From contig NZ_CP070304.1 of the NCBI RefSeq assembly GCF_016917355.1, positions 2,976,001 to 3,040,000 of the forward strand: a stretch of DNA of 64,000 nucleotides, in the 5' to 3' direction. Both the position numbers and the translations under genes were made by a program. Source of the stretch: Glaciimonas sp. PAMC28666 (GTDB taxonomy: Bacteria > Pseudomonadota > Gammaproteobacteria > Burkholderiales > Burkholderiaceae_D). How positions within the stretch are numbered: the first letter of the stretch is position 1; each line of letters begins with the position of its first letter. The notes under the pieces were generated by a model. The model was given only the letters and a program-made list of their open reading frames with translations, was not told the origin of the DNA and ran no database searches. This document shows positions 3,877 to 27,967 of this stretch, piece by piece.

Positions 3877-3911
3877 ATACCGAAGAGTATAGAACAAATA
3901 CTAGCAGGTAT
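3877..3911. promoter_or_regulatory. Phased ATAC/GTAT operator-like element, caiB side
   Basis: Tetramers ATAC (3877), GTAT (3887), ATAC (3898) and GTAT (3908) form two adjacent inverted repeats of the form ATAC-N6-GTAT, 11 bp apart. On the minus strand a TATACT -10-like hexamer lies between the repeats, 32-66 bp before the caiB start, so a bound protein would block caiB transcription. The element matches three other copies in the window. Confidence 0.55.
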
Positions 3912-4004
3912 GTGTGTTTCTGATCATGGAATTTCCGGACCCCTCCGGCAGAGCTGTGAGATCCGTGGTTTTTATGGAAATCCGGTCCGATTGTCTTCAA
4001 GTAT

Positions 4005-4038
4005 ATACTTGACCGTACTTAATAGTACCGTTTAGTAT
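4005..4038. promoter_or_regulatory. Phased ATAC/GTAC operator-like element, crotonase side
   Basis: ATAC (4005), GTAC (4015), GTAC (4025) and GTAT (4035) occur at exact 10 bp steps. Partly overlapping its left end is a perfect 14-bp palindrome, CAAGTATATACTTG (3998-4011). A possible promoter for the crotonase lies inside the element (-35 TTGACC at 4009, -10 TAGTAT at 4033, 18-nt spacer), as expected for a repressor site. Confidence 0.55.
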
Positions 4039-4106
4039 GACGACATAGCCGAGCGACACATCGAAAGCACCGCGGCGTGGCAAGCACAACTACAAGGATA
4101 CAAACC

Positions 4107-4871
4107 ATGACAGATGAAGTGTTGGTCGAACACGAAGATGGCCTGGTGATCATAACGATCAATCGGCCGCAGGCAAGAAATGCAGCGAATCGGGCGGTGT
4201 CTTTCGGCGTGTGCGAGGCCATGGACGAAATGGACCGGCGCGATGATTTACATCTGGCGATTCTTACAGGTGCCGGTGGCAATTTCTGCTCTGGTATGGA
4301 CCTCAAGGCATTCGCGCGCGGAGAAGTTACGCGGGTCGAAGGTAGAGGGATTCTGGGAATTACCGTGACACCGCCGCGCAAGCCGGTAATCGCCGCTGTT
4401 GAGGGTTTTGCATTGGCAGGGGGTTTCGAATCGGCATTGGCTTGCGATCTGTTGGTGGCCTCGCGCACGGCGATGTTCGGTCTGCCAGAAGTTAAACGCG
4501 GACTGGCCGCGGCGGCTGGCGGATTGTTGCGTTTGCCGCGGTTGATCCCGCAGCGCATCGCAATGGAAATAGCGCTCACGGGAGAAATGATATCGGCTGA
4601 GCGGTTGGAGCGCTACGGACTGATCAACAGGTTAGTCGAGCCGGGTGATGCATTGGCAGAAGCCAAGCGCCTGGCGCGCCTGATCCTTGCCAACGCACCG
4701 ATGTCGGTGGCGGCGAGTAAACGTGTGATAGTTGAGCAACGGGATTGGGCGCTGGATGAGATGTTCGCACGCCAGGAGGCGATCACGGGAGCGATTCTGC
4801 GCTCAAACGATGCGCGTGAGGGCGCGCTGGCATTCGCCGAAAAGCGCGCAGCGAAGTGGACATGCACCTGA
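4107..4871 (+). CDS. Enoyl-CoA hydratase/isomerase (crotonase family)
   Basis: 254 residues from the ATG at 4107, preceded by AAGGAT at 4094; an upstream in-frame GTG at 4077 has no better site. Crotonase fold: an oxyanion-hole segment (NFCSGMDLKAFA) and both catalytic glutamates of classical hydratases, Glu108 in GGFESALACD and Glu128 in LPEVKRGL. Their 20-residue spacing equals that of Glu144/Glu164 in rat enoyl-CoA hydratase, so hydration of an enoyl-CoA is likely. It is followed 97 nt later by the acyl-CoA dehydrogenase on the same strand, giving two consecutive beta-oxidation-type steps. Substrate unknown. Confidence 0.92.
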   Translation: MTDEVLVEHEDGLVIITINRPQARNAANRAVSFGVCEAMDEMDRRDDLHLAILTGAGGNFCSGMDLKAFARGEVTRVEGRGILGITVTPPRKPVIAAVEGFALAGGFESALACDLLVASRTAMFGLPEVKRGLAAAAGGLLRLPRLIPQRIAMEIALTGEMISAERLERYGLINRLVEPGDALAEAKRLARLILANAPMSVAASKRVIVEQRDWALDEMFARQEAITGAILRSNDAREGALAFAEKRAAKWTCT

Positions 4872-4968
4872 GAGTGACTTTGTGTGTGCTGAAAAAATAA
4901 AAATAATTTAAAAATGCCGGCAGCTTACTCAGTGTGTGCGTTTCAAACCTATAACCCAGAGTGTTCTC

Positions 4969-6135
4969 ATGATTCCACGTACCATTTTTAGTTCCGACTA
5001 TGAACTCTTTCGCGATACCGTACGTCGTTTTATCGCAGAACACATCGTGCCGTTCCACGCCGACTGGGAGAAAGCCGGTCAAGTGCCGCGCGAACTCTGG
5101 CTTAAAGCCGGCGAACTAGGCCTGCTATGCTGTAATGTTCCCGAGGAATACGGCGGCATGGGCGGGGACTTCTTGCATAGTGCCATCCTGATTGAGGAAA
5201 TGGCACGAGTTGGTGCCACCGGTCCAACCTTCTATCTGCAATCAGACATCATTGCGCCTTATCTGGTGGACTTCGGTACAGAAGAGCAGAAAAAAAAGTG
5301 GCTGCCAAAAATGGCAACGGGCGAAGTGGTTGTGGCGCTGGGGATGAGTGAGCCGTCGGGCGGTAGCGATGTACAAGCCATGCGCACACAAGCGTTACGT
5401 GAAGGCGATGAATACGTGATTAATGGACAGAAGGTCTTTATCACAAACGGCCACAGCGCTGATTTGTTGGTACTCGCTTGCAAGACGGATCCTAAGGCGC
5501 GAGGCAAGGGCGTGAGCTTGATTCTGGTCGAGACCGACAGATCAGGTTTTACACGTGGACGCAAGCTGGAAAAAATCGGCTGCAAAGCCCAGGATACTTC
5601 GGAATTATTTTTTTCCGATGTGCGCGTGCCTGTCAGCAATCTGCTCGGTCAAGAAGGTGGCGGATTCGTTATGTTGATGACGCAACTGGCACAAGAGCGT
5701 CTGGTCCAGGCCATTCGTGGCGTGTCGAGTTCCGAAGCAGCGTTGCAGTGGACGATAGATTACGTTACCGAGCGCCAGATGTTCGGCCAGACGCTGGGCG
5801 ATTTCCAGAATACGCGATTCAAGCTAGCCGAGTTGCATGCCGAAATATTGGCACAACGGGTATTTGTTGATCGTTGTATCGAGTTGCACCTGAAGGGCGA
5901 ACTGGACGCGACCGATGCCGCCGCGGCCAAATTGGTCACCACTGAACTGCAAGGAAAAGTCATGGATCAATGTCTGCAGTTTTTCGGTGGATGGGGCTAC
6001 ATGTGGGAATATCCAATCGCACGCGCATTCGCTGATGCCCGCATGTGTCGCCTGGGTGGCGGTACTGCCGAAGTCATGAAGCAAATTATCGGCAATGCAA
6101 TATTACCGAAAGTTCGGAAGCCGGTAATCGCGTAG
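4969..6135 (+). CDS. Acyl-CoA dehydrogenase, long-chain/isovaleryl type active site
   Basis: 388 residues from ATG 4969; an in-frame GTG at 4936 would add 11 residues. It has the full acyl-CoA dehydrogenase architecture: helical N-terminus, beta domain with ALGMSEPSGGSDV (substrate/FAD-binding signature), and helical C-terminus with QCLQFFGGWGYM. The catalytic base of medium-chain enzymes (YEGT) is replaced by LGGGT; instead a Glu sits in QLAQERL (Glu243), the position used by long-chain and isovaleryl-CoA dehydrogenases. It should be FAD-dependent and pass electrons to electron-transfer flavoprotein. It forms a unit with the crotonase and would introduce the double bond that enzyme hydrates. 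Confidence 0.93.
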   Translation: MIPRTIFSSDYELFRDTVRRFIAEHIVPFHADWEKAGQVPRELWLKAGELGLLCCNVPEEYGGMGGDFLHSAILIEEMARVGATGPTFYLQSDIIAPYLVDFGTEEQKKKWLPKMATGEVVVALGMSEPSGGSDVQAMRTQALREGDEYVINGQKVFITNGHSADLLVLACKTDPKARGKGVSLILVETDRSGFTRGRKLEKIGCKAQDTSELFFSDVRVPVSNLLGQEGGGFVMLMTQLAQERLVQAIRGVSSSEAALQWTIDYVTERQMFGQTLGDFQNTRFKLAELHAEILAQRVFVDRCIELHLKGELDATDAAAAKLVTTELQGKVMDQCLQFFGGWGYMWEYPIARAFADARMCRLGGGTAEVMKQIIGNAILPKVRKPVIA

Positions 6136-6276: not shown

Positions 6277-6305
6277 TTGGGTTATACCTTAAAGTACTTT
6301 ACAAT
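6277..6305 (+). promoter_or_regulatory. Predicted sigma-70 promoter for tctBA
   Basis: TTGGGT (-35, 6277-6282), a 17-nt spacer and TACAAT (-10, 6300-6305). The operator at 6284-6317 covers the spacer and the -10. Promoter called by eye only. Confidence 0.4.
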
Positions 6306-6317
6306 ACCAAATAGTAT
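6284..6317. promoter_or_regulatory. Phased ATAC/GTAC operator-like element ahead of tctBA
   Basis: ATAC (6284), GTAC (6294), ATAC (6304) and GTAT (6314) at exact 10 bp steps, the same layout as at 4005 and 24713. It overlaps the best predicted promoter, consistent with repression by occlusion. Confidence 0.55.
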
Positions 6318-6509: not shown

Positions 6510-6582
6510 CGCAGAAGGCTTGAAATATGTCGCGCGAGAAATAAAGATAAAAATAAATTCAATGTAGCAATGGAGGATGACA

Positions 6583-7047
6583 ATGCGCAACTTAATCAAT
6601 AAATATAATAAAGATTATTACGGCGGTGGCTTAATGATGTTGTTGGGTTTGGGTGCCGTGGTGCAAGGGCGCACTTATAACATCGGCACGTTGAGCAAAA
6701 TGGGCCCGGGATTTTTCCCGGTCGCGCTCGGGACCTTGTTGATGTTAGTCGGCGCGGCAATCGCTCTTACCGCTAAGAATTCCGCATCCGCCGCGGAAGA
6801 GAAGTATGTGCGTCCAGAATGGCGCGGCTGGATCTGCATCGCTCTTTCCATCGTCGCGTTCGTGGTATTGGGCAAGTATGGGGGCCTGTTGCCGGCAACC
6901 TTTGCGATTGTTTTCATCGCCGCAATGGGTGACCGGAAAAATTCACTAAAGAGCGCGTTCCTACTATCGTCGGCGATGGTAGCGGTGTGCGTGGTGATAT
7001 TTTGGTGGGCCCTTAAATTGCAGTTTCCTTTGTTTCAGTGGGGTTAA
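6583..7047 (+). CDS. tctB: TctB-family small membrane subunit of tripartite tricarboxylate transporter
   Basis: 154 residues from ATG 6583, chosen because GGAGG at 6572-6576 is 6 nt upstream; the ATG at 6577 abuts the Shine-Dalgarno. Four hydrophobic segments in a short protein that begins with NKDYYGGGLMMLLGLGAVVQG, the pattern of TctB. TctB is the small inner-membrane partner of TctA in secondary solute uptake that depends on a periplasmic TctC binding protein. tctA starts 3 nt after its stop. No tctC gene lies in the window. Confidence 0.9.
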   Translation: MRNLINKYNKDYYGGGLMMLLGLGAVVQGRTYNIGTLSKMGPGFFPVALGTLLMLVGAAIALTAKNSASAAEEKYVRPEWRGWICIALSIVAFVVLGKYGGLLPATFAIVFIAAMGDRKNSLKSAFLLSSAMVAVCVVIFWWALKLQFPLFQWG

Positions 7048-7050
7048 GTC

Positions 7051-8604
7051 ATGATCGGACAGTCTTTAATGGATTTGTGGCAAGGCTTCGGCGTTGCGCT
7101 TCAGCCACACAATCTGATGTGGTCGTTTGTCGGTGTATTGATTGGTAATCTGATCGGAGTTTTGCCGGGTATGGGTGCGCTCTCGGCGATTTCCATGCTG
7201 CTGCCCCTGACGTACTCCTTGCATCCAATTCCTGCGATTTTGATGCTGGCCGGCATTTTCTATGGCTCGCAGTATGGTGGCGCCATCGGTGCAATTTTGC
7301 TTAACTTGCCGTGCCATCCGCCGCATGCAGTGACCTGCCTTGATGGTTACCCGCTGACTAAACAAGGCAAGGGTGGAACCGCGCTCGGTATCACGATGAT
7401 TTCATCATTTTTTGCCGCCTCGTTCGGTATTGTTGTGATGATTTTCGCATCGCCTCTTTTGGTGAGTGTTGCCTTCAAATTTGGGCCGACTGAAATATTT
7501 TCGATCATGCTACTTGGCCTGATTTGCGGCGGTACCATGTCAAAGGGCTCTCCGTTAAAAGGAATAGCGATGACCTTGGTAGGCCTGATGATCGGACTGG
7601 TAGGAACGGATGTGAATACTGGTACGGCCCGGTTCACCATGGGACTGATCGAGCTGTCCGATAAGGTTGAATTGGTGGCGTTAGCGCTGGGACTATTTGG
7701 TGTGACCGAATTTTTACGCAGCGTCAATCGGATGGAGGTTGTCGCCAAAGGCGTCAAAATGCGTTTGCGTGACATGCGACCCAGCAAGGCTGAGCTAAAG
7801 CAGTCTTTTTTTCCAATGGTGCGCGGCACGTTGATCGGGACTCTGTTTGGTGCCATGCCAGGTACCGGACCAACGATAACAACCTTTATTGCGTATGCAT
7901 TCGAACGCAAAATATCGAAAACGCCTGAACGTTTTGGTCATGGGGCGATTGAAGGTGTGGCTAGTCCAGAGGCCGCATCACACTCAAAAACCCAGGTGGA
8001 CTTTATTCCGACCATGAGTCTGGGTATTCCCGGCGACGCCGTAATGGCGCTGATCCTCGGCGCACTGTTGATTCAGGGAATTCAACCTGGACCGCAACTG
8101 ATCACGGAACATGCCGACCTTTTCTGGGGACTTATCGCGAGCTTCTGGATTGGCAACGTGTTGCTGGTGATATTGAATGTTCCGCTGATTGGTATCTGGG
8201 TAAAACTGCTTCAGGTTCCTTATCGTTACCTTTATCCGGCAGCGCTTTTCTTTATCGCTGTCGGCGTGTATAGCACCAATAACAGTCTGTTTGAAATTGG
8301 TGAAGTATTGATATTCGGTTTGATTGGTGCTGTTTTTGTCGCCCTGGATTTTTCAGTCGCACCCATTTTGCTGGGGTATGTGCTGGGACCGATGGTCGAG
8401 GAAAATTTCCGACGCGCATTGTTGCTTTCACGGGGCGACATGATGGTGTTCGTGCAGCGCCCAATTAGCGGTGGATTCCTTGCCGTGTGCGCCTTCCTGA
8501 TTCTCACGCAACTGTTTTTCGCGGTGCGGAGCGGTCAACGGAAAAAAATGGCAAAACTGCGGCCAGTGACGCCGACAGCAATTCCGGTTGTTGAGGAAGG
8601 CTGA
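7051..8604 (+). CDS. tctA: TctA-family large membrane subunit of tripartite tricarboxylate transporter
   Basis: 517 residues, normal TctA length, with about 11-12 hydrophobic helices and two TctA glycine/proline signatures: GVLPGMGALSAISMLLPL near residue 30 and GAMPGTGPTITTFIAYAFE near residue 270, the internal repeat of the family. It is the transport channel, driven by the ion gradient and fed by a periplasmic TctC-type receptor. Paired with tctB under the phased operator, so probably an uptake route for the pathway carboxylate rather than citrate itself (inference). Confidence 0.93.
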   Translation: MIGQSLMDLWQGFGVALQPHNLMWSFVGVLIGNLIGVLPGMGALSAISMLLPLTYSLHPIPAILMLAGIFYGSQYGGAIGAILLNLPCHPPHAVTCLDGYPLTKQGKGGTALGITMISSFFAASFGIVVMIFASPLLVSVAFKFGPTEIFSIMLLGLICGGTMSKGSPLKGIAMTLVGLMIGLVGTDVNTGTARFTMGLIELSDKVELVALALGLFGVTEFLRSVNRMEVVAKGVKMRLRDMRPSKAELKQSFFPMVRGTLIGTLFGAMPGTGPTITTFIAYAFERKISKTPERFGHGAIEGVASPEAASHSKTQVDFIPTMSLGIPGDAVMALILGALLIQGIQPGPQLITEHADLFWGLIASFWIGNVLLVILNVPLIGIWVKLLQVPYRYLYPAALFFIAVGVYSTNNSLFEIGEVLIFGLIGAVFVALDFSVAPILLGYVLGPMVEENFRRALLLSRGDMMVFVQRPISGGFLAVCAFLILTQLFFAVRSGQRKKMAKLRPVTPTAIPVVEEG

Positions 8605-10033: not shown

Positions 10034-11671
10034 ATGCGTGCACCTTACAGTAGAAATTTATTTGACCTTGTATGTGAAATGGCGGAGCGGTACACGGATC
10101 GCTCGGCCATCATTGCAGGAGATCAACGTGTCACTTATCCTGAGCTCGAATTACGCGTGAGACGGGTCGCTGCTGGCATGCGCGCCGCAGGGATAGTGCG
10201 TGGCGACAGGATCGGTATTTTAGTCAACAACCGTCCGGAGTGGGTCGAAGTCTGTATCGGTGCGGCGGCTCTTGGCGCGGTGGCGGTTCCTTTCAGCACC
10301 TGGTCGAAACGCGCAGAGCTGGATTTTTTGCTGGCCGATTCAAAAATAAAACAATTGTTCACACTTAAGAGTTTTGGTGAGCAGGATTATGCCGCCGACC
10401 TGATTGCGTTGATACCCGAATTGGGTTCCGCAGCACCGGGGCGGTGGCGCTCCGAGCGATTTCCGCAGTTAGAGGCAGTTATTGCGATCGGTGACAATGA
10501 CGCCGGTCATACGCCACTGGTCGGTGCCGTTGCTTATGAGGATTTTGTCAGTCTTCATACACCACTCGACGAGTCGCAGGCACCGGGTGGCGGCGGTCAG
10601 AATGGCGATGATGCAATGATTTTGTATACGTCAGGCTCAACCTCTTATCCAAAAGCAGTGCGCTTAACGCAGTGTGCAATGATTGAAAATGCATTCAACA
10701 TCGGCGAGCGGCAAGGTTATACACCGTACGAAAAAGTTCTTCTGGCGTTGCCTTTGTTCTGGTCCTACGGATCGGCAAATGCGATGTGCGCCACATTCAC
10801 GCACGGTGCTGCACTGGTATTGCAGACACGTTTCGAACCGGCTGGCGCGATTGATCTGATTGAGCAACATGCTTGTTCGGCGATATATACCTTGCCTGCG
10901 ATGACAACCAGTATCGTGACGCATCCGTCATTCCGTAGCGAGAGGACGCGCAGCCTGCGTACCGGCCTGACCATCGGCAGCGCACAAGATGTCGTCAATG
11001 CCGCCGAACTACTCGGTGCGACCGAGATTTGCAATGTGTACGGTCAAACTGAAAGTTATGGTAACTGTTGCGTCACCTGGCACCACTGGACACTGGAGCA
11101 GCGCAAGCAAATGCAAGGACAGCCTCTTCCCGGTGTGACGGTACGGATCGTGGATGCGGACTCTGGGGAAGAAATGCCACAAGGTGAAACCGGCATGATT
11201 GAGGTGTGCGGAAATGTGACGCCCGGATACACCGGTATTAGCATAGAGCTTAACGACTCCGCGTTCACATTGGACGGCTATTTCCCAACAGGTGATCTGG
11301 GACGGATGACCGCTGACGGTTGTTTGCAGTTTGTCGGACGTAACACTGAGATGATCAAGCGTGCAGGTATTAACGTGGCGCCCGCTGAAATTGAAGAGTT
11401 GCTCCAACAGCACAGCGCCGTGGCGCTGGCTGGCGTGACGGGCGCACCCGATGCTGACCGGGGCGAAATGATTGTCGCCTTTATCGTGCCGGTGCCGGGT
11501 ATGGAAGTCAGCTGTGCAGAGTTACAAGCCCATTGCCGTGCCATTGCATCCAGCTATAAAGTACCAAATCGTATTGAAATCTGCGAGGCCTTACCGGTGA
11601 CCCCGACCGGCAAAGTTTTGCGCCGGGAGTTGAAAGCGATGGCTACGGCATTGACTTCCCCCACAAAATAA
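10034..11671 (+). CDS. AMP-dependent acyl-CoA synthetase (ANL superfamily)
   Basis: 545 residues. Contains the phosphate-binding loop ILYTSGSTSYPKAV, the adenine-binding segment NVYGQTESYG, the hinge/ribose region FPTGDLGRMTADGCLQFVGR, and the C-terminal catalytic lysine in TPTGKVLRREL. It activates a carboxylic acid with ATP and ligates it to CoA. The P-loop lacks the common TTGxPKG ending (SYPKAV), a modest variation. It stands alone on its strand between two regulators; the acid is unknown, and aryl, terpenoid or medium-chain acids are all possible. Confidence 0.92.
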   Translation: MRAPYSRNLFDLVCEMAERYTDRSAIIAGDQRVTYPELELRVRRVAAGMRAAGIVRGDRIGILVNNRPEWVEVCIGAAALGAVAVPFSTWSKRAELDFLLADSKIKQLFTLKSFGEQDYAADLIALIPELGSAAPGRWRSERFPQLEAVIAIGDNDAGHTPLVGAVAYEDFVSLHTPLDESQAPGGGGQNGDDAMILYTSGSTSYPKAVRLTQCAMIENAFNIGERQGYTPYEKVLLALPLFWSYGSANAMCATFTHGAALVLQTRFEPAGAIDLIEQHACSAIYTLPAMTTSIVTHPSFRSERTRSLRTGLTIGSAQDVVNAAELLGATEICNVYGQTESYGNCCVTWHHWTLEQRKQMQGQPLPGVTVRIVDADSGEEMPQGETGMIEVCGNVTPGYTGISIELNDSAFTLDGYFPTGDLGRMTADGCLQFVGRNTEMIKRAGINVAPAEIEELLQQHSAVALAGVTGAPDADRGEMIVAFIVPVPGMEVSCAELQAHCRAIASSYKVPNRIEICEALPVTPTGKVLRRELKAMATALTSPTK

Positions 11672-11785
11672 TCGCGCCAACGATGCATCGGTGCGCCGTC
11701 GCGTCGGTGCGCCGGTGCATTGATGCACTAGCGTGCAGGCGAACCAGATGATCTGACCAAGTGATGTGGAGACTAGAATATTCCC

Positions 11786-12676
11786 ATGAACATTCAGCAA
11801 CTTGAAACCTTTTGCTGGATTTCCCGGCTCGGCACTTTTAGTGCGGCTGCCGAACGCTTGTACACGTCTCAGGCGAGTGTTTCGTCACGTATCCGCGAAC
11901 TCGAAATGGAACTCGACGTAGTCTTATTTGACCGTATAGGTCGGCATGTTCAGCTCACCCTTAAAGGGCGCGAATTACTGGTGCACGCAGAAAAAGTGGT
12001 GATCGACGCATCTCAGCTGCGACTGACAGCTGGCAAGCCTGAGATTACCAGCGGTGTGGTCAAGATCGGCTTGGGAGAAGTGATTGCCGCACGTTCTTTA
12101 GTCGCAATGATCAATGCATTGAAGCAGCGATATCCTGGGCTTGCGGTCGAGTTTGATATCGACTTGAATGCCAGCCTGTTGCAGAAACTGGGACGCGGTG
12201 CAATAGATGTCGCCATTGTGGGCGGTCCCATAAATAACGCTGAAATTAAAGCCGTGCCGATTGGTGCAATGAAGGTGGTGTGGGTCGGCGCACCCGCATT
12301 GCTTGGTGAGTTGAAAGTGGTCAGCCCACGTGAGATCGCGGCATTGCCCATCATTTCTCTCAGTCGCGACGCTCGCCTATTTACCCAGATGCAGGGTTGG
12401 TTTGCGGATGATGGAGTGGTGCCGGATTCAATCAGTTTTTGTAACAATATGTCGACAATGCTGTATGTCGCGCGTGGCGGCGTGTGTGTCTGCATGATGC
12501 CGCAAGAATTGATCAAAGACGATGTGGACAGCGGAATGCTAGTGGCGTTGGAATCACGGCCACCGATCCCTTCCATCACTTTTTTTGTGGCCACCCGGGT
12601 TGATAGTTTAGACCCGGCAATCGCCGATTTCGCCGCTATCGTGTCTGAAGTTTGCCGACTACCGCCGGTGACTTAG
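11786..12676 (+). CDS. LysR-family transcriptional regulator
   Basis: 296 residues, standard LTTR length. N-terminal winged HTH: NIQQLETFCWISRLGTFSAA, then RLYTSQASVSSRIRELEMEL, followed by the LysR substrate-binding domain from about residue 85. It lies just upstream of, and in the same direction as, the bicupin-to-porin gene series at 12.9-24.3 kb, so it is the likely local regulator of that series. The 114 nt before it hold a GC-rich repetitive stretch (GGTGCGCC repeated near 11690-11715) that may act as a terminator for the ligase gene. Confidence 0.9.
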   Translation: MNIQQLETFCWISRLGTFSAAAERLYTSQASVSSRIRELEMELDVVLFDRIGRHVQLTLKGRELLVHAEKVVIDASQLRLTAGKPEITSGVVKIGLGEVIAARSLVAMINALKQRYPGLAVEFDIDLNASLLQKLGRGAIDVAIVGGPINNAEIKAVPIGAMKVVWVGAPALLGELKVVSPREIAALPIISLSRDARLFTQMQGWFADDGVVPDSISFCNNMSTMLYVARGGVCVCMMPQELIKDDVDSGMLVALESRPPIPSITFFVATRVDSLDPAIADFAAIVSEVCRLPPVT

Positions 12677-12896
12677 TTGACCGCAATGACTTGATCAAAG
12701 CAATGAATCGGTATCGTTCAGCTGTGCAATGAAAGTAATTAATAATGTTGTTAATTGATGGTCTCAGTGATCGGTATCGACAAGAATTTCTCGTTTGACC
12801 CTAGTGGATGAGCGGCGTAACGTAAGACCCATAAAGATCGTTTCGATCCATCCCGTCTGGGAGGAAAAAACGGCGATAAAACGACAGGAGATCACC

Positions 12897-13844: not shown

Positions 13845-13876
13845 TTACCTCATGCAGCTGCGCCAAAGTTGACCAC

Positions 13877-13896
13877 GGCGGCACGCGAGTGCCGCC
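13877..13896 (+). other. Perfect hairpin with GCGA tetraloop between bicupin and TauD genes
   Basis: GGCGGCAC (13877-13884) pairs perfectly with GTGCCGCC (13889-13896) around the GNRA tetraloop GCGA. Only a weak T-stretch follows, so it may protect the upstream mRNA 3' end, or reduce read-through, rather than terminate fully. Confidence 0.5.
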
Positions 13897-13948
13897 TCTT
13901 GTGCTACCTAAAACCAATAATTCTTTTTCTAGATCTGGAGATATCTTT

Positions 13949-14845: not shown

Positions 14846-14940
14846 ATAGCGATTGATGTTTTGGTCCGGACGCAAGCGTAAGCGCCTGGATCAGGAGCTT
14901 CAAATCGTTTCTGTTTTTACTGTTACCTGAAAGCTGTCTC

Positions 14941-15972: not shown

Positions 15973-16062
15973 GCGCACGCAGCAGGCTCGAGCACGAAGT
16001 TTTCGAATCGGTTCTACTAATTATAAAAATAAATACCATGGCCTCAGGCCAGAGGAGACGTT

Positions 16063-16866
16063 ATGCCAGATGCTGATCCATTCGGACTGGCGCAACAGGT
16101 CTGCGTAGTAACCGGTGCCGGCAGCGGCATTGGACGCAGCATCGCCACCGCGTTTGGTAAATCCGGGGCACGGGTCGTTGTGCTTGACGTCAATGTCGAA
16201 GGAAGCGCCGAAACCGTTAGGAAAATTAACGAATCAGGTGGACAGGCCATCGCCATCCACTGCAACGTGGCAGAACCTGCTAGCGTTGAAGCAGCCGCAG
16301 AGCGCGCCTTCAGCGCCTTTGGTCCGTGTGATGTATTGGTCAACAATGCTGGCCTGATTCGAGCGGGCGGTCTCGATACGCTGTCTTTCGAGGCGTGGAA
16401 TTTGCTGCTATCGGTAAATTTGACTGGCTATTTTCTTTGCTCGCAAATTTTCGGTCGGCAGATGCGGGCCAAAGGCAAGGGCGCATTGGTCCACATTGCC
16501 TCGATCGCGGGGAGTAATCCGACGGCTTTTAGTGGCGCATACAGTGTCGCGAAAGCGGGCGTGAGCATGTTGTCGCAGCAGCTTGCAGTGGAATGGGGAC
16601 CGTCTGGAATTCGAAGCAATGCTGTGCATCCCGGCATGATTTTGACACCGCTGTCGGCGGCGATGTATGACCAGCCCGGCGTGTTGGAGCAGCGTAACAA
16701 GTCGATTCCCGCAGGGCGTATCGGCACACCCGAGGACGTAGCGCAAGCGGTGTTATTTTTGGCTAGCGATATGGCCTCTTACGTTAACGGTGATGCGTTG
16801 ACGGTTGACGGTGGCTTTACCAGCATGCTCCTAAGTCTGGTGCCACGTGCTGGTTATACGCAGTAA
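16063..16866 (+). CDS. Short-chain dehydrogenase/reductase (classical SDR)
   Basis: 267 residues. NAD(P)-binding TGAGSGIG near the N-terminus, an acidic residue after the second strand (VVVLDVN, suggesting NAD preference), NNAG, the catalytic Ser in HIASIAGS and the YxxxK pair in YSVAK. It ends with the family's DGGFTS segment. It interconverts an alcohol and ketone of the pathway intermediate. A small TGGCC-TCA-GGCCA hairpin (16039-16051) immediately precedes its AGAGGAG ribosome-binding site and could tune translation. Confidence 0.94.
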   Translation: MPDADPFGLAQQVCVVTGAGSGIGRSIATAFGKSGARVVVLDVNVEGSAETVRKINESGGQAIAIHCNVAEPASVEAAAERAFSAFGPCDVLVNNAGLIRAGGLDTLSFEAWNLLLSVNLTGYFLCSQIFGRQMRAKGKGALVHIASIAGSNPTAFSGAYSVAKAGVSMLSQQLAVEWGPSGIRSNAVHPGMILTPLSAAMYDQPGVLEQRNKSIPAGRIGTPEDVAQAVLFLASDMASYVNGDALTVDGGFTSMLLSLVPRAGYTQ

Positions 16867-16962
16867 GTGCCCTAGCAATTAATTGTTCGGATTGTTACTG
16901 AAACCCAGGATAAACCATGGTTTTCACTGCCACATAATATTTCAAAATAGGGAAAGTTTCAC

Positions 16963-17901
16963 ATGGCCGACTTGATTCTGCACCACTTCCTGATTTCGCC
17001 ATTCTCAGAAAAAATCCGACTGGTGCTGGGTTATAAAAACCTTGCCTGGAAATCAGTGATTGTTCCCGGTGTTTTGCCCAAGCCTGACGTCGTCGCCCTC
17101 ACGGGCGGCTATCGCAGGACGCCCTTCCTGCAAATTGGCGCGGACATTTATTGTGACAGCGCCCTGATCTGTGAAGTTCTGGAGCAGGTCCGGCCAACCC
17201 CGGCACTTTATCCATCATCAGTGAACGGTATGGCGCGCACATTGGCGCAGTGGGCGGATACCACGCTTTTCTGGAGCGTTTTGGCACCCCCAAGAGATAC
17301 CGTGTATATGTTCGCTGACTCACCGCCGGAGACTGTCAACTTGTTTGCGGCAGATCGGGATGCAATGAAGGGGACGATGCATAGATTGCGTGGATCCGAC
17401 GCAGCAGCGGCCTGCAAAATCTATTTTGACCGACTTTCGGAGATGTTAACCGATCAGCCTTTTTTGCTGGGACAAAAACCTTGTATCGCTGATTTTTCGG
17501 TTTATCACCCATTGTGGTTCAGTCTTCAATTTACACCGGTTGTCGCAGACATGCTGCGTACGATGCCGAAGCTGCTGGCATGGATGGGACGCATGCAGGT
17601 TTTGGGCCATGGCACGACGCAGCAAATTGATTCAGCGCAGGCTGTGATGGCTGCTGCACGGGTTGAGCCACTACCGATTGGTGAAGGCCCGTTAGCCGAC
17701 CTGCGTTTTCAGGACGAACATGGCATCCCACTTGGCAGTCGGGTGACGGTCACAGCAGAAAGTTTCGGGCCGGAAGCGACGGAAGGCGAACTGGTCGCTG
17801 CCACACGGTCGCATTTCACCTTACGCCGCCACGATCCTCGTGCGGGCACGGTGCACGTGCATTTTCCAAGAATTGGTTACGTCCTCGATAAAGTGGCGTA
17901 G
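16963..17901 (+). CDS. Glutathione S-transferase-like protein with C-terminal beta extension
   Basis: 312 residues. The first ~80 have the thioredoxin-like GST N-terminal domain (ILHHFLISPFSEKIRLVLG, with Ser in SPFSEK as a possible active-site residue, then TPFLQIGADIYCDSALICEVLE). A helical C-terminal domain runs to about residue 230. The last ~75 residues (from about EGPLADLRFQDEHG) exceed the usual 200-230 of GSTs and look beta-rich (GSRVTVTAESFG ... GTVHVHFPRIGYV). In catabolic clusters GSTs act as isomerases, lyases or dehalogenases. The added domain is unassigned. Confidence 0.82.
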   Translation: MADLILHHFLISPFSEKIRLVLGYKNLAWKSVIVPGVLPKPDVVALTGGYRRTPFLQIGADIYCDSALICEVLEQVRPTPALYPSSVNGMARTLAQWADTTLFWSVLAPPRDTVYMFADSPPETVNLFAADRDAMKGTMHRLRGSDAAAACKIYFDRLSEMLTDQPFLLGQKPCIADFSVYHPLWFSLQFTPVVADMLRTMPKLLAWMGRMQVLGHGTTQQIDSAQAVMAAARVEPLPIGEGPLADLRFQDEHGIPLGSRVTVTAESFGPEATEGELVAATRSHFTLRRHDPRAGTVHVHFPRIGYVLDKVA

Positions 17902-18011
17902 CCGGTATTGCGCCTCACCGCCAGGCAACGTCCATCTGGAACTTTGCTGATCGCTGGGGCGACTTTGTAGCACCGTATAAAAATAATAATTCTTTCCATC
18001 AGGAGATCAGT

Positions 18012-19247
18012 ATGAGCGCATTTAAATCCGTATTAAAACCCATTGTGAGCATCGCATTGTTGGCTGGTGCGGCAATGTTGCCCCATTTGGCAGTGGCCGC
18101 AGATCCGATCAAAATCGGCGCCATCAACCCTTTCAGCGGTCCGCTGGCCCTGTACGGTGTCGAAGTGACCCGCGGTTATGAGTTAGCGGTAGATCAGGCG
18201 AATGCAGCCGGTGGCATTCTTGGACGCAAGATCGACATCGTTCGCGGTGACGCGTCGACGCCGCAGCAAGGTATCGCTACCGTCGAGCAGCTGGTGGCGA
18301 AGGATAAGGTCGACCTGTTTGTTGGCACCTATACCAGCCCGGTTTCTAACGCGGCTAGCGATGCGGCTTCGCGCTATAACAAGTTGTATTGGGAAACCGG
18401 CGCATTGGCACAAAATCTGACCGAGCGCGGCTTGCCAAATTATATTCGTATGAGCCCGAATGGCGGCGATTTCGCGTTGTTGTCGGTCACGGCTGTGCGG
18501 GAGCTGGTCGCGCCAGCGCTTAAAAAGAATCTGAAAGACGTCAAGGTCTGGATTGAGCATGAAGACTCGCTGTATGGCACCTCGATTGCTCAGACCCAGA
18601 AGCGTCTGCTTGAAGCACTCGGTGCCAAAGTTGTCGGCGTGGGTGCGCACTCAATGCGCTCGATTGATTTGAACGACACGGTTCTGCGCGCCAAGCAAGC
18701 TAATCCAGACGTGTTGATCCAGACTGGTTATGTGCCGGACGGCAACCTGTTATTGCGTACGGCCCGCGATCAAGGTTTCAAGCCGGGTGCGATTCTGATG
18801 GTGGGAGTGGGCGACACGCCGGAGACACTCCAATCCGTGGGCGCTCCATCGATCGAAGGTGTGCTGGTGGTCAGCTATCCGCGTACCGATATTTCTGATA
18901 AATATGGTCCTGGCGCTAAAGGCTTCCTGGCTGCCTATCGCGCTAAATATAAATCTGATCCGATCGCATCGCAAAGCATGACTGCGTATGTCGGAATGCA
19001 AATGCTGTTCGACACGATTCGTGCCGCGGGTAGCCTGGATGTCGCAAAAATCCGAAGCGCCGCTGCAGCGATGGACAAGCCGAATGGTACTTATGCAACC
19101 GGTTACGGCCTCAAGTTTGATAAAAATTTCCAAAATGTCCGCGCCCTCCCTGTTACTGCGCAATGGCAGAGCGGCAAGATGGTCACAGTGTTTCCGATAG
19201 ACGCTTCTCCGGTGGGCGCGACACTTAAGCCTCTTACCCGGAACTAA
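18012..19247 (+). CDS. Liv-type ABC transporter periplasmic substrate-binding protein
   Basis: 411 residues. A Sec signal peptide with cleavage near AVA-A (residues 29-30) precedes a type-1 periplasmic binding fold beginning DPIKIGAINPFSGPLALYGVE and NAAGGILGRKIDIV, the Peripla_BP_6 pattern. It would capture the substrate in the periplasm for the permeases and ATPases downstream (19371-22840). A strong hairpin separates it from the permease gene, a layout known to favour higher amounts of binding protein. The ligand is unknown; these proteins also bind aromatic acids and amides. Confidence 0.92.
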   Translation: MSAFKSVLKPIVSIALLAGAAMLPHLAVAADPIKIGAINPFSGPLALYGVEVTRGYELAVDQANAAGGILGRKIDIVRGDASTPQQGIATVEQLVAKDKVDLFVGTYTSPVSNAASDAASRYNKLYWETGALAQNLTERGLPNYIRMSPNGGDFALLSVTAVRELVAPALKKNLKDVKVWIEHEDSLYGTSIAQTQKRLLEALGAKVVGVGAHSMRSIDLNDTVLRAKQANPDVLIQTGYVPDGNLLLRTARDQGFKPGAILMVGVGDTPETLQSVGAPSIEGVLVVSYPRTDISDKYGPGAKGFLAAYRAKYKSDPIASQSMTAYVGMQMLFDTIRAAGSLDVAKIRSAAAAMDKPNGTYATGYGLKFDKNFQNVRALPVTAQWQSGKMVTVFPIDASPVGATLKPLTRN

Positions 19248-19319
19248 GCCCGTAAGTAGCTGTAAGTCCGTATATCAACTTACGAAGAAGCGAGTCTTTG
19301 GTAATACGACTTGGGTATA

Positions 19320-19353
19320 GGGAGGCCGTTCGCAGTCTAAGCGACGGCTTCCC
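19320..19353 (+). other. Intercistronic hairpin between binding protein and permease genes
   Basis: The arms GGGAGGCCGT-T-CGC (19320-19333) and GCGACGGCTTCCC (19341-19353) form a 13-bp stem with one bulged T and one G-U pair around a 7-nt loop. No T-run follows. A second inverted repeat, CGTAAGT/ACTTACG, lies just upstream (about 19251-19285). The position suggests mRNA stabilisation or partial attenuation. Confidence 0.55.
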
Positions 19354-19370
19354 ATCATGGAAAGAAGGCA

Positions 19371-20261
19371 ATGGATCAAATTTTAAATGTGCTCGTGTTT
19401 GGCATTTTACTAGGCGGCATTTACGGCCTGGTAAGCATCGGGTTGAATCTGATTTTTGGCGTTGTGCGAATCGTCAATTTTGCACAGGGCGAACTGGTGA
19501 TGTTCGGAATGTACGGCAGTTACTATGCCTACACCTATCTGGGGCTCAATCCTTATCTGGCAGCGCTGCTGGTCGCACCATTGGTTGGCCTGATCGGTAT
19601 GGCGATTCAGCGCCTGGTGATTCAGCCTCTCCACAACGAACCGAATATGCAGATATTTGCGACCTTCGGCCTGTTGATGATGTTTCAGAACATTATGCTG
19701 GCAATCTCGCGCGGCGAGGCGGTCAGTATCGGTGGTGATGCGGGCGCAGCTGTGCTAGCGCTTGGTGATATGAAAATCAGTGTTGTCCGGCTGGTTACAT
19801 TTATCGCTACCACGCTCATTACGGTCGGATTGCATTTGTTTTTGTCCCGCACCATGGCAGGCAAGTCGATCCGCGCTGTGACGCAGGATAAACGTTCTGC
19901 GCGGGTGATGGGTATCAACGTCGAGCGTACTTTCCTGTACACCTTCGGCCTTGGTGCCGGCTTGGCTGGGCTGGCTGGTGTGCTGCTGACGCCAATCTAT
20001 TCGATCACGCCCACGGTCGGCGGTAACTTTATTCTTGCTGCTTTTGCTGTGGTCGTTCTAGGTGGCCTGGGGAGTGTCTGGGGCGCTTATATCGGCGGCC
20101 TGATCGTCGGCATCGTTGAAGCATTTGCTGGCTATTACATCGATCCTTCGTTGAAAAGTGCGATCTGGTTTGTCATTTTTCTTATCGTTTTAATCTTGCG
20201 TCCATCAGGCCTGTTCGGTCAGGTTGGCGCGGAAGAAGTGGGATTCCGTGAACAACATTGA
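19371..20261 (+). CDS. Liv-type ABC transporter permease (LivH family)
   Basis: 296 residues with about eight membrane segments; opens VFGILLGGIYGLVSIGLNLIFG and contains NFAQGELVMFGMY, the conserved LivH segment. The EAA-like loop is near RAVTQDKRSARVMGINV. It pairs with the overlapping LivM-type gene to form the channel of the first Liv-type importer in the window. Confidence 0.94.
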   Translation: MDQILNVLVFGILLGGIYGLVSIGLNLIFGVVRIVNFAQGELVMFGMYGSYYAYTYLGLNPYLAALLVAPLVGLIGMAIQRLVIQPLHNEPNMQIFATFGLLMMFQNIMLAISRGEAVSIGGDAGAAVLALGDMKISVVRLVTFIATTLITVGLHLFLSRTMAGKSIRAVTQDKRSARVMGINVERTFLYTFGLGAGLAGLAGVLLTPIYSITPTVGGNFILAAFAVVVLGGLGSVWGAYIGGLIVGIVEAFAGYYIDPSLKSAIWFVIFLIVLILRPSGLFGQVGAEEVGFREQH

Positions 20262-21351
20262 AACAAGTACGCTTGATAAAGAGATGCCTTTAGCCCCACC
20301 TCAGGTGCGGTCCAATGCAGAGTCTGAGCTGGAACATTACGGCGCCATCCATCGCGATTGCGGAATCGATGGCAGAAAGCAGACGCTGCTGAAATATCTC
20401 GGCGGGATAGCGATCGCGTTCTTGCCGTTCATCCTGATGGTAAATGATCCGTATTGGCTCAACATCATCGCGTTCACCTATTTGATGGGTGGCCTGGCGG
20501 CAGCGTGGAACATCATCGGCGGGTTTGCCGGCCAGTTCTCGCTCGGTCATGGTGTGTTTTTTGGCATTGGCGCATATGTCACGGCGCGGTTCTATACGCT
20601 GTTTGATGTCTCGCCATGGCTCAGCATGATTCCGGCAGCCCTGTTCGCGGCGCTGATTGCGGTGTTGATCTCATGGCCGACGTTTCGTTTGCGTGGGCCA
20701 TTTTTTGCCATTGCAACAATGGCGTTCAATGAAGTTGCGTTTGTGATCGCAAACCACTTTGATTCGCTGACGAATGGCCCTAGCGGTATTTTGATTCCTT
20801 TTAAGCCAGGCTTTGCCAACATGATTTTCGTTGAGCGTTGGCAGTACGGCTTACTGATGTTTGTGTTCGCGGCGCTGGTGATTGGGATCACTGTGCTGTT
20901 GCGCCGAAGTCGGCTTGGTTATTACCTGCTGGCAGTGCGCGAGGATGAGGATGCGGCGCGGGCTGCCGGTATTAACGTGCTAAGTGTCAAATTGCGCGGC
21001 ATGGCGTTGAGCGCTGGCCTGACATCGATAGGCGGCACTTTGTTTGCGATGTATTTACGCTATATCGATCCGCCTACACTTTTTACGATGACCGATGTCG
21101 GTGTGAAATTTGCCTTGATAACATTGATCGGTGGAATCGGAACGATTGCTGGCCCATTACTGGGCGCGGCACTGATTATTCCGTTTGAAAATTTCCTGCG
21201 TGCCGAACTCGCTAGCGCGCTGCCCGGCATTAATTTAGCGATCCTTGGATTCCTGATGGTGCTGGCGGCTTTATTCATGAAGCGCGGTTTGGTTGGCGCA
21301 CTGACCGACCTGTGGCGCAAGCTGGAACTCATGTGGATGGCAAGAAAATGA
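20248..21351 (+). CDS. Liv-type ABC transporter permease (LivM family)
   Basis: 367 residues from GTG 20248, which overlaps the end of the LivH gene; ATG 20284 is also possible. It has about nine membrane segments, the LivM hallmark GFAGQFSLGHGVFFGIGAYV, and the cytoplasmic ATPase-contact loop RLGYYLLAVREDEDAARAAG. The first ~45 residues are hydrophilic and longer than usual. Its stop overlaps the start of the LivG gene (ATGA at 21348). Confidence 0.93.
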   Translation: MNNIETSTLDKEMPLAPPQVRSNAESELEHYGAIHRDCGIDGRKQTLLKYLGGIAIAFLPFILMVNDPYWLNIIAFTYLMGGLAAAWNIIGGFAGQFSLGHGVFFGIGAYVTARFYTLFDVSPWLSMIPAALFAALIAVLISWPTFRLRGPFFAIATMAFNEVAFVIANHFDSLTNGPSGILIPFKPGFANMIFVERWQYGLLMFVFAALVIGITVLLRRSRLGYYLLAVREDEDAARAAGINVLSVKLRGMALSAGLTSIGGTLFAMYLRYIDPPTLFTMTDVGVKFALITLIGGIGTIAGPLLGAALIIPFENFLRAELASALPGINLAILGFLMVLAALFMKRGLVGALTDLWRKLELMWMARK

Positions 21352-22124
21352 CGCAAACAATGACGAAAGAAATGTCCCAAGTAAAGCCCGGCGCGATGCA
21401 GCCAATGCCGGATCTGCTCGCGGTCAAGGGTGTCAGCAAGCAGTTCCTTGGATTGCGCGCCGTCGATAACGTCACGTTGTCGGTAAAAAAAGGTGAGATC
21501 ATTAGCATCATCGGGCCTAATGGCGCTGGTAAAACTACTTTTTTCAACTTGCTCTCCGGTCAGTTATCGCCCAGCGAGGGTGAAGTGCATCTGCGCGGAG
21601 ACGTCATTAACCGGCTCGCACCGCACGCACGTGCCCAACTCGGCATCGGCCGCACCTTTCAGATCGCCAAGCCGCTGATCACATTGAGCGCGCTGGAGAA
21701 CGTCATGATCGGCGCATTCATGCGCCATGCGCGTTTAACGACTGCGCGCGACAAAGCGATGGAGGTACTGCAACGTGTCGGGTTGGCGCGCCACGCATTG
21801 CGACGGGCTGGTGATTTAACGTTGAGTGAACGACGTCGGCTGGAGGTGGCGCGGGCGCTTGCGCTTGAGCCTGAATTGGTCTTGCTTGATGAAGTCATGG
21901 CTGGCCTGAATCAGAGCGAAGTGGGACAAGTCATCGAATTACTGCAGGACTTACACGCCAACGGCCTGACCTTTTTGATTATTGAACACAACCTCAAGGT
22001 AGTCCGTGCCTTCTCGGATCGGGTGGTGGTGCTGGATCGCGGTCGCATGATCGCAGAAGGTAGTGCTGAGCAGATTCTGAGCTCACCGGAAGTCATTAAA
22101 GCGTATCTTGGAGATCAACAATGA
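21348..22124 (+). CDS. Liv-type ABC transporter ATP-binding protein (LivG family)
   Basis: 258 residues from ATG 21348, in the ATGA overlap with the permease; a GTG at 21312 is an alternative. Walker A GPNGAGKTT, Walker B ELVLLDEVMAGL and H-loop IIEHN are present. The expected LSGGQ-type signature reads LTLSERRRLEVARAL, the relaxed form common in LivG. It drives import together with the LivF-type subunit at 22121. Confidence 0.94.
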   Translation: MTQTMTKEMSQVKPGAMQPMPDLLAVKGVSKQFLGLRAVDNVTLSVKKGEIISIIGPNGAGKTTFFNLLSGQLSPSEGEVHLRGDVINRLAPHARAQLGIGRTFQIAKPLITLSALENVMIGAFMRHARLTTARDKAMEVLQRVGLARHALRRAGDLTLSERRRLEVARALALEPELVLLDEVMAGLNQSEVGQVIELLQDLHANGLTFLIIEHNLKVVRAFSDRVVVLDRGRMIAEGSAEQILSSPEVIKAYLGDQQ

Positions 22125-22840
22125 CGAACGCTATTTTACGGGTTGAGGCGCTCTGCTCCGGGTATTCGGAACTACCTGTTTTGCATGGCATGACGCTCGA
22201 CGTCGGACAAGGTGAATTTGTGTCGGTAGTGGGTGCGAACGGCGCGGGTAAAACCACGTTGCTACTGACGATCACTGGCCATTTGAAGACGCATTCTGGC
22301 CGCGTAATGTTCGATGGGCAAGATATCACCAATTTGCCCGCGCATGCTGCGGCGGAACGTGGGCTGGTCATGGTGCCTGAAGGCGGCCGTCTGTTTCCAT
22401 TCATGAGCGTGTTGGAAAATCTCCAGCTTGGTGCTTACCATGCGAAAGCTCGGGAACGGATGGCGGAGTCGCTGGACGAAGTAATGACGTTATTTCCATT
22501 GCTTGCAGAAAGACGCACACAGCTGGCCGGTCGCCTGTCCGGCGGTGAACGTCAGATGTGCGCCGTCGCTCGCGCAATGATGGCGCTACCGAAACTGTTG
22601 ATGCTGGATGAGCCGTCACTCGGCCTCGCGCCGATCATGGTTGATAAAGTGTTTGAGATTGTCAGCCAGTTGGTTGCATCAAAGGGCATTTCGGTATTGT
22701 TGGTGGAACAGAACGTTGGCAACGCGCTGCGCATGTGTCAACGTGGTTGCATCATCGAGCACGGTCGTATTCTCAAGATCGCAAGTGGCAAAGATCTGTT
22801 GCAAGACCCTGACATTCAACGCTCGTATATGGGGCTTTAA
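22121..22840 (+). CDS. Liv-type ABC transporter ATP-binding protein (LivF family)
   Basis: 239 residues, overlapping the LivG gene by ATGA. Walker A GANGAGKTT, signature LSGGERQM, Walker B LLMLDEPSLGLAP and H-loop LLVEQNV are all intact. It completes a five-gene importer (binding protein, H, M, G, F). The region past its stop holds degenerate repeats of CTTTAAAC (about 22832-22885). Confidence 0.95.
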   Translation: MTNAILRVEALCSGYSELPVLHGMTLDVGQGEFVSVVGANGAGKTTLLLTITGHLKTHSGRVMFDGQDITNLPAHAAAERGLVMVPEGGRLFPFMSVLENLQLGAYHAKARERMAESLDEVMTLFPLLAERRTQLAGRLSGGERQMCAVARAMMALPKLLMLDEPSLGLAPIMVDKVFEIVSQLVASKGISVLLVEQNVGNALRMCQRGCIIEHGRILKIASGKDLLQDPDIQRSYMGL

Positions 22841-23155: not shown

Positions 23156-24340
23156 ATGAAAAAATTAGTTGCTGCAATCGCCATACTGGCTCCTTTCGGC
23201 GTAGCACAAGCCGACTCCAGCGTTACCATTTACGGTAATGTGGATGCAGCTATCGTATCGGTTAATACGATCGGTGGTACGACAAAACCGGGCGGTACCG
23301 TCGGCGTCAATTCAGCACACATTATTCGTGAAGATTCTGGTGTTGGTCCGGCAAGTCGTCTTGGCTTTCGCGGTAACGAAGATCTTGGCGGTGGACTGAG
23401 CGCGAACTTCGTCCTTGAGGCAGGCTTCGGTGCCGATAATGGCGCGAGCCAGCAGGGCGGTGTATTTTTTGGTCGTCAATCATGGGTTGGTTTGACCGGA
23501 ACTAACTGGACTGTTTCCATGGGTCGTCAATATGCGCCGATCGACGTCATCTTTGCGATGATCGATCCAATGTATGGTCTGTACTTCGGTAACGCAACCA
23601 CTGCGACCAACCACGCTATTTATCCAACCATTGGCGCAACTGCAACCAGCGGCACATGGCAGTCGACTTCACGGGTGAATAACTCGTTGTTGGGAACATT
23701 CAAAACGTCGGGTCTGACGTTCAAGTTGATGTTGGCAGCCGGCGACGAAAACACCCGTGGCACAGGTCAGTTGATCAACCCAAGTGTTAACTACGACAAT
23801 GGTCCTTTGTCGTTGAGCTTATCGGCTACCCGTCTGCGTCAGGCGCAAGATAGCATTCTTGCGACCGTTAAGCCAGAGTGGGTGAGTGAGCAAATTGCCG
23901 GTGGTTCTTATACATTTGACTTCGCCAAGGTGTTCGTCGGCGCTTATCAATTTATCGGACCGAGCAATTTTGCTAACCTAAGCCCAGCCGCAACGGTTGG
24001 TAATCCTGCTGCAGCTGCTTATGCTTATACCTGGAGCCGTCAACGTTCATACTGGTTCGGCGCACGTATTCCGGTCGGCACGGGTACTTTCATTCCGTCT
24101 ATCGACAGAATCGATTATCTGTATAAAAATAGCCCGAACGGCCGCGGCACTGTTGTCGGCCTGACGTATGAGTATCCGTTCTCGAAGTCGACCGTGTTGT
24201 ATGCTAACTACGGACAGACCAAGAACAATTCATATGCAAACGGTCCTTTGGTTTCGACGATCACTTCTGCGACAGTTGGCGTTGTTCCTTACGGTTCAAC
24301 CATTCGTGCAGCGGCAATCGGCATGCGCCACTCCTTCTGA
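23156..24340 (+). CDS. Gram-negative trimeric porin (OmpC/Omp32-like)
   Basis: 394 residues. The signal peptide ends AQA-D (cleavage after residue 19) and the mature part begins SSVTIYGNVDAAIV, the start of betaproteobacterial 16-stranded porins. SRLGFRGNEDLGGGLSANFVLE and GRQSWVGL follow, and the chain ends with the outer-membrane targeting Phe (MRHSF). It forms an outer-membrane channel. Placed directly after the importer, it probably admits the same substrate into the periplasm (inference). Confidence 0.95.
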   Translation: MKKLVAAIAILAPFGVAQADSSVTIYGNVDAAIVSVNTIGGTTKPGGTVGVNSAHIIREDSGVGPASRLGFRGNEDLGGGLSANFVLEAGFGADNGASQQGGVFFGRQSWVGLTGTNWTVSMGRQYAPIDVIFAMIDPMYGLYFGNATTATNHAIYPTIGATATSGTWQSTSRVNNSLLGTFKTSGLTFKLMLAAGDENTRGTGQLINPSVNYDNGPLSLSLSATRLRQAQDSILATVKPEWVSEQIAGGSYTFDFAKVFVGAYQFIGPSNFANLSPAATVGNPAAAAYAYTWSRQRSYWFGARIPVGTGTFIPSIDRIDYLYKNSPNGRGTVVGLTYEYPFSKSTVLYANYGQTKNNSYANGPLVSTITSATVGVVPYGSTIRAAAIGMRHSF

Positions 24341-24491
24341 CCCGGATCGACGTAAAAGTCGCCCCAGCGGCGTCGTGCTCTCCTTGCCACCTACGCGGCT
24401 CGGTCTTTCGTACTGTCTGCGTCGGCACGCCTTGCTGGGACGATTTTGCGTCAATCCTGGACTTAAGATCTGCATCCTGATACACCATTGA

Positions 24492-24528
24492 TGGCCCTCC
24501 TCAAAATGAGCAGGGCCACTTTGTTTTA
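24492..24528 (+). terminator. Probable porin terminator
   Basis: TGGCCCT (24492-24498) pairs with AGGGCCA (24512-24518), with an inner CTC/GAG pair, followed by a T-rich tail (CTTTGTTTT). Confidence 0.6.
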
Positions 24529-24690
24529 AGCCTCTGTTTTCTTCTACGTTGACATAATTTTACGGCTGCTTTACGCAGATTCATTGTGCAATCGCTATTT
24601 TATGTACGTACTTTTTTACGTCCATTTCAGTCGAAATTTAGTCTCCAATTTTGCCGCATTGGGGCGTGTTTATTGTCTCGATCAAAATTG

Positions 24691-24719
24691 TTGCGACCTC
24701 GGGAAAAATACGATACCAT
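24691..24719 (+). promoter_or_regulatory. Predicted promoter of the ten-gene catabolic operon
   Basis: TTGCGA (-35, 24691-24696), 17-nt spacer, TACCAT (-10, 24714-24719). The -10 overlaps the first inverted repeat of the phased operator. Called by eye. Confidence 0.35.
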
Positions 24720-24746
24720 CGGGTATATAACAATTCTATAAAGTAT
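24713..24746. promoter_or_regulatory. Phased ATAC/GTAT operator-like element ahead of the ten-gene operon
   Basis: ATAC (24713), GTAT (24723), ATTC (24733, one mismatch from ATAC) and GTAT (24743) at exact 10 bp steps. Same geometry as the copies at 4005 and 6284, and it overlaps the -10 of the predicted promoter. Confidence 0.5.
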
Positions 24747-26572: not shown

Positions 26573-26592
26573 TCAGACCCTTTATTTTGCTA

Positions 26593-27955: not shown

Positions 27956-27967
27956 TGATTTGGCGAG

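Follow-up and report, generated by a model that had tools for sequence, protein, structure and literature searches.

The TetR repressor MbdR of Azoarcus sp. CIB (PDB 4uds) is described as binding the operator ATAC-N10-GTAT and as responding to the first acyl-coenzyme A (acyl-CoA) of the pathway that it controls (PMC4424350). In Sulfolobus acidocaldarius, the TetR protein FadRSa is reported to bind just four genomic sites, with one or two dimers per operator, and to repress one 30-kb cluster (PMC6449355). FadP and LiuQ are TetR regulators reported from β-proteobacteria (PMC5343134), and DarR (PDB 8sva), whose ligand is cyclic di-AMP, is described with the operator core ATAC-N6-GTAT (PMC10636190). 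Here, five sites are considered that lie in or near a 64,000-nucleotide stretch of Glaciimonas sp. PAMC28666 (the window; positions 2,976,001 to 3,040,000 of contig NZ_CP070304.1), and positions below are those of the window unless marked as genome. Judged from sequence comparison, these sites are very probably (at roughly 87%) operators for TetR1, the TetR_C_24 repressor whose gene lies at 1732-2526 (plus strand), and this protein would coregulate five units of one carboxylic-acid breakdown pathway. As predicted, this is a TetR regulon of familiar type, resembling the control exerted by MbdR and FadRSa, with a distinct operator spacing.

An earlier note on this DNA had described four sets of phased ATAC- and GTAY-like tetramers at 3877, 4005, 6284, and 24713. 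All four are present at these positions, three as exact matches and one with a single mismatch, and each consists of two adjacent ATAC-N6-GTAY palindromes (no strand is assigned to the sites). Operators 2 (4005-4038) and 3 (6284-6317), with palindromes 20 bp apart, match ATAC-N6-GTAY-N6-RTAC-N6-GTAT exactly; operator 4 (24713-24746), also with a 20-bp step, departs once from this 34-bp form, its third tetramer being ATTC. Operator 1 (3877-3911), with palindromes 21 bp apart, is an exact match to a 35-bp form that contains one 11-bp step. The count of four was correct for the window and incomplete for the cluster, since a fifth copy, operator 5, lies 7 kb upstream of the window (genome 2969016-2969050; L007:8016-8050) and heads a run of genes ending in tetR1.

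When up to three mismatches were allowed, the 34-bp form gave four matches in the window against 0.18 expected, a number reached in none of 100 shuffles; one of the four (3857) is a shifted reading of the site at 3877. The corresponding count for the 35-bp form was not significant in the window (1 versus 0.24 expected, with at least one match in 19 of 100 shuffles), and the sole match carries no mismatch. A genome scan had been proposed as the test of whether the pattern falls at random positions, and it does not. A slightly looser pattern, searched without mismatches in the 5.23-Mb genome (a single contig), was found at five places, namely the four window sites and operator 5, all within 31.7 kb, whereas the reversed-pattern control gave one. 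Genome-wide searches with three mismatches yielded no further sites above control (31 places versus 30, and 25 versus 54); weak matches of this kind at genome 1353645-1354988 flank the gene of a second TetR protein, TetR2. A sequence-only model was also built from 19 training sites (five of the window genome, four of locus L033, and ten of other relatives), with 150 first-look candidates scored per genome. It ranks the five operators first in the window genome (E 8e-6 to 4e-4), as expected because they were among the training sites, and the next place, at genome 1353690 (E 0.03), lies beside the TetR2 gene.

The five operators recur in synteny in two TetR-bearing congeners, G445 and G466. The sites of G466 were not part of the model, and five syntenic sites were recovered there in the same order and upstream of the same genes (E 2e-5 to 2e-3), together with a further match (E 0.007) beside its second TetR. 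In two other congeners, G409 and G483, neither TetR (at E 1e-45) nor the monooxygenase (at E 1e-60) was matched, the pattern was not found either, and the best model E values are 1.9 and 0.42, respectively. Distinct pattern places number five in the window genome, seven in G445, five in G466, and zero in both G409 and G483; TetR, sites, and pathway travel together across the congeners. The sites are real and conserved, and they are near-unique in the genome.

Three further features of G445 were recorded. A pattern match at C31:220329, between a sugar-kinase-like open reading frame (ORF) and another ORF, was treated as chance (model E 1.47). An ORF for a pyrroloquinoline quinone (PQQ)-dehydrogenase (L105:5825-7617) lies between livF and tctC, where the window genome has none, and is preceded, 43 bp before its listed start, by an operator array of its own. 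A weak pair of palindromes (L103:10597-10631; matrix score 16.6), which was not counted as a chain, lies ∼1.8 kb upstream of the ten-gene run described below.

The geometry of the sites was examined with a matrix built from single palindromes of nine sites, with which 34 sources were scanned. Palindromes at steps of 20 or 21 bp formed 43 chains (34 of two, 8 of three, and 1 of four palindromes); five of these are second views of a place already counted in another locus, so the distinct chains number 38, nine of them training sites, and some of the non-training chains stem from closely related genomes. Eleven other spacings gave 0-2 chains each. The 11 chains at 40/41 bp are accounted for by the addition of two 20/21-bp steps. 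A separate count of palindrome offsets gave 0 at 3 bp, 2 at 6 bp, 19 at 10 bp, 50 at 20 bp, and 24 at 21 bp, the value at 10 bp arising because the inner tetramers can also be read as a palindrome. The array unit is the palindrome NTACY-N4-RGTAN, repeated two to four times in steps of 20 or 21 bp, equal to two helical turns. With column-permuted matrices as the reference, 11 of 28 loci reach a score of 20 versus a permutation mean of 0.15 and a maximum of 6 (200 permutations), which is support rather than proof because the 28 loci include site-free ones (e.g., L040, L041, and L050). No site in the stretches L006, L067, and L069 approaches the five in score (best values 6.5, below 6.6, and 13.8). 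These results bear on the explanation that the pattern reflects chance or composition in AT-rich intergenic DNA. Three-mismatch patterns are indeed no commoner than their controls, and at individual loci some permuted matrices score as high as observed (e.g., 3 of 200 in L038), but the close grouping of the five zero-mismatch places, their conservation, and the concentration of chains at a single step contradict this explanation, and its likelihood is negligible.

The earlier note had taken QacR as the model for the sites. QacR, as described, does place two dimers on each operator, as is proposed here, but its inverted repeats overlap and its dimers sit on opposite sides of the DNA, whereas the present palindromes are adjacent and two turns apart (PMC6449355); the fit is therefore poor. 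Since the offsets concentrate at 20 and 21 bp, an overlapping two-palindrome arrangement of the QacR or DarR type is not seen in these arrays. FadRSa differs likewise, being archaeal and having a second dimer that is described as QacR-like, on overlapping repeats and opposite DNA sides (PMC6449355). The core reported for DarR is equal to a single palindrome at the present sites; the second DarR dimer is described on an overlapping palindrome within a 20-bp operator, while the palindromes here follow one another at 20-21 bp (PMC10636190). The ATAC/GTAT tetramers are common to the MbdR operator and these sites (PMC4424350), but all five sites have N6 rather than N10 within the palindrome and occur as phased pairs, no dedicated N10 search having been made. 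Listings and abstracts of the literature gave no two-dimer, adjacent-dimer, or tandem-palindrome TetR operator with 20-21-bp spacing, a weak negative given poor coverage of subscription journals, and, judged by titles and the openings of abstracts, none of the papers found on Glaciimonas and TetR concerns this regulon.

The note had also pointed to the TetR gene at 1732 as the regulator, and this candidate is favored by synteny, by the joint absence of TetR and sites in two congeners, and above all by the palindromes kept by TetR2 and other homologues without the pathway genes. TetR1 has the Pfam domains TetR_N (E 9e-16) and TetR_C_24 (E 1.5e-30). Its AlphaFold model has a mean predicted local distance difference test (pLDDT) score of 80.9, with residues 1-47 below 50; the TetR1 counterparts of two congeners have N-terminal tails of comparable length. 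The best Foldseek matches of the model are TetR proteins, consistent with a TetR fold, and the nearest solved folds include PfmR, AibR, KstR2, DarR, and Bacillus FadR (22%-25% identity in fold alignments). DarR is recovered as a relative by both sequence and fold, and its described DNA contacts Thr43, Lys44, and Tyr48 are spaced as T97, K98, and Y102 of TetR1, by offset and not by alignment (PMC10636190). The recognition segment K98-F105 is invariant across 25 TetR homologues. The titles of the AibR and FadR structure entries name bound acyl-CoAs, which is why a ligand of this kind is proposed for TetR1; gene content and fold neighbors together suggest an acyl-CoA inducer. Because operator 5 precedes a same-strand run that ends with the gene at 1732, tetR1 probably closes a unit that begins with its own operator.

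The window genome encodes TetR2, 67% identical to TetR1, at genome 1354150-1354890 (L068:2162-2956, minus strand), and a third, weaker TetR_C_24 match at genome 731415. The N-terminal tail of TetR2 is rich in Lys, Pro, and Ala, as are such tails in the second TetRs of congeners. An internal stop in TetR2 was considered and rejected, the apparent stop being the end of the match in an intact ORF. A palindrome pair covers the TetR2 start codon, and an array of four palindromes (L068:1645-1719; steps of 20, 21, and 20 bp; one member weak) precedes the adjoining livH-like gene. Searches of this locus by tblastn with the cluster proteins gave just distant Liv-type matches. The second-TetR locus of G466 has a like arrangement, with one array member below threshold. 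TetR1 and TetR2 share an identical recognition segment, and the TetR2 locus bears the same palindromes; binding of each protein to the other's sites is therefore plausible, and the five sites could be controlled by TetR2 or by both proteins with shared specificity. G445, however, retains all five sites although the one TetR found there at E 1e-45 is the TetR1 counterpart, and the cluster-linked TetR of relatives is TetR1. Control by TetR2, alone or shared, is accordingly improbable, and TetR1 is preferred as the binder.

Several TetR homologues without the pathway genes carry these palindromes, often over the TetR start codon. The comparison covered 25 TetR-homologue loci (L033-L057), weak matches at four more (L058-L061) being excluded. 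A 20/21-bp chain is present at 14 of the 25. At 11, a palindrome lies no more than 260 bp upstream of the TetR match; the pattern used here was loose, with ∼0.14 expected per locus by our estimate. At least one of these two features is present at 21 loci. At six loci (L035, L040-L042, L049, and L056), the palindrome continues into an in-frame ATG, reading GTATGAAAAA. At L036, L037, and L039, a single array-headed run holds genes that are divided among units here (cyclase, caiB, acyl-CoA dehydrogenase, tctC, ligase, monooxygenase, thiolase, ChsH2-like, and TetR). A strict motif search of 245 family genomes gave matches in seven, two Glaciimonas and five others, and the reversed control gave two genomes with one match each among the matches listed. 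In G558, G500, and G569, three of these five others, the motif lies between a CoA ligase gene and a TetR gene whose product is 29%-32% identical to TetR1; the G558 protein, which was scanned, has a TetR_C_24 domain. Since TetR2 and the homologues keep palindromes where pathway genes are missing, the motif, as far as these comparisons reach, tracks TetR rather than the pathway. The same observation bears on the proposal that another regulator of the cluster binds the sites, be it the LysR protein at 11786, the AraC protein at 8703, the LysR protein at L007:973-1899, or the IclR-like domain at 31461. These do lie in the cluster, and some are conserved in G. immobilis, but the palindromes also accompany TetR2 and TetR homologues at loci where such regulators were not detected, and the palindrome is the core of a TetR (DarR) operator. 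Binding by one of them is very improbable, being less likely still than control by TetR2. Two loci stood out for their repeats. At L051:9700-9960, GTAGA..TCTAC-type repeats lie upstream of the TetR homologue, where others have TAC/GTA palindromes, and the specificity has perhaps changed; in G517 (L118:10110-10163), three strong palindromes in 20-bp steps precede a Glu/Leu-dehydrogenase-like gene.

Several observations weigh against reading the five sites as operators of TetR1. The note had placed a predicted promoter at or beside each copy, which holds for operator 2, where a sigma-70-like match (TTGACC-18-TAGTAT, 4009-4038) lies inside the site; at the other sites, promoter scans gave no convincing match in the gene direction. 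Offsets of 10 bp also occur, so that more than one choice of palindrome pairs by a dimer is compatible with the sequence. The absences in G409 and G483 cannot separate TetR from pathway, since both are missing along with the sites, and in four g184 genomes, whose TetR is more distant, double-site places number 2, 1, 1, and 0, which is the control level. Both chain and upstream palindrome are lacking at four of the 25 homologue loci (L045, L050, L051, and L057). For G517 and G607, two of the five additional genomes found by the motif, no TetR relative was found in the sequence examined (20.0 and 14.9 kb), and the G607 site, a run with a 10-bp period, is unconvincing.

The units controlled by TetR1 would be as follows, with transcription units taken from gene order. 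Operator 5, with tctC 101 bp downstream, is followed on the same strand by genes for a CoA ligase, two thiolase-like proteins (the second named by reading, without a domain scan), an OB protein, a flavin-binding monooxygenase, a third thiolase-like protein, a ChsH2-like protein, and TetR1; in the window, this run includes a thiolase-like gene (72-1229, plus strand) and the gene of the ChsH2-like zinc-ribbon/OB protein (1233-1637, plus strand; L007:16233-16637). Operator 1 faces the caiB gene of a CaiB-type CoA transferase (2739-3845, minus strand), which starts 31 bp downstream. Operator 2 lies upstream of an enoyl-CoA hydratase/isomerase (crotonase) gene (4107-4871, plus strand; the ORF list gives 4077 and the start was chosen), itself followed by an acyl-CoA dehydrogenase gene (4969-6135, plus strand; start likewise chosen, 4936 in the ORF list). 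Operator 3 precedes tctB by 259 bp, and tctB-tctA (6577-8604, plus strand) encode the membrane parts of a tripartite tricarboxylate transporter. Operator 4 lies 83 bp before a ten-gene run (24830-34707, plus strand) that begins with a substrate-binding protein, a cupin, an LLM-type flavin mononucleotide (FMN) monooxygenase, and four Liv-type transporter genes, named by reading without a scan, and continues with a flavin reductase-IclR fusion, a cyclase-like hydrolase, and a CaiB-type transferase. The fusion (31461-32561) is one ORF in which a flavin reductase domain is joined to an IclR-type C-terminal domain, and no DNA-binding domain was found in it by Pfam scan. The single regulon proposed in the note is supported in that five units are headed by sites; it does not span the whole window, for the matrix scan found no palindrome chain ahead of the genes at 10034-22840.

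This arrangement, in which operators precede the CoA ligase, transporter, and repressor genes, is that of MbdR, also described as a TetR repressor of a β-proteobacterial catabolic cluster with a CoA ligase, an ATP-binding cassette transporter, and several controlled promoters including its own (PMC4424350). MbdR is distant from TetR1 (phmmer E 1.7e-6; profile E 2.7e-13), and the pathway genes differ. In the proposed mechanism, one TetR1 dimer would bind each palindrome, and neighboring dimers would be aligned side by side along a single DNA face, aid each other's binding, and jointly shut the promoters of the five units: tctC-CoA ligase-thiolases-flavin monooxygenase-tetR, caiB, crotonase-acyl-CoA dehydrogenase, tctBA, and the ten-gene transporter/oxygenase/CoA-transferase run. 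An acyl-CoA from early in the pathway may bind the C-terminal domain of TetR1, upon which the dimers would leave and uptake, oxygenation, CoA activation, and β-oxidation would be induced jointly. The repressor itself would be induced with them, and we therefore propose negative feedback.

A wider extension is tentative, and we rate it somewhat below even odds. The TetR_C_24 clade may use open-ended operators of two to four palindromes phased by two turns, on which a cooperative row of dimers would form along one DNA face, perhaps helped by the unstructured N-terminal tail. Array length would then set the strength of repression promoter by promoter, and the code would be common to wider TetR/CoA-ligase/transporter loci in Burkholderiales and some Alphaproteobacteria. 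Such phasing provides a simple system for testing cooperation between TetR dimers on palindromes that adjoin instead of overlapping, and searches with the operator can reveal members of this regulator clade, with their targets, in other genomes, as happened here for three. For Glaciimonas, scattered transport, oxygenase, and CoA genes would gain a regulator and a readable operator code, which argues for one common pathway and would narrow the search for its substrate.

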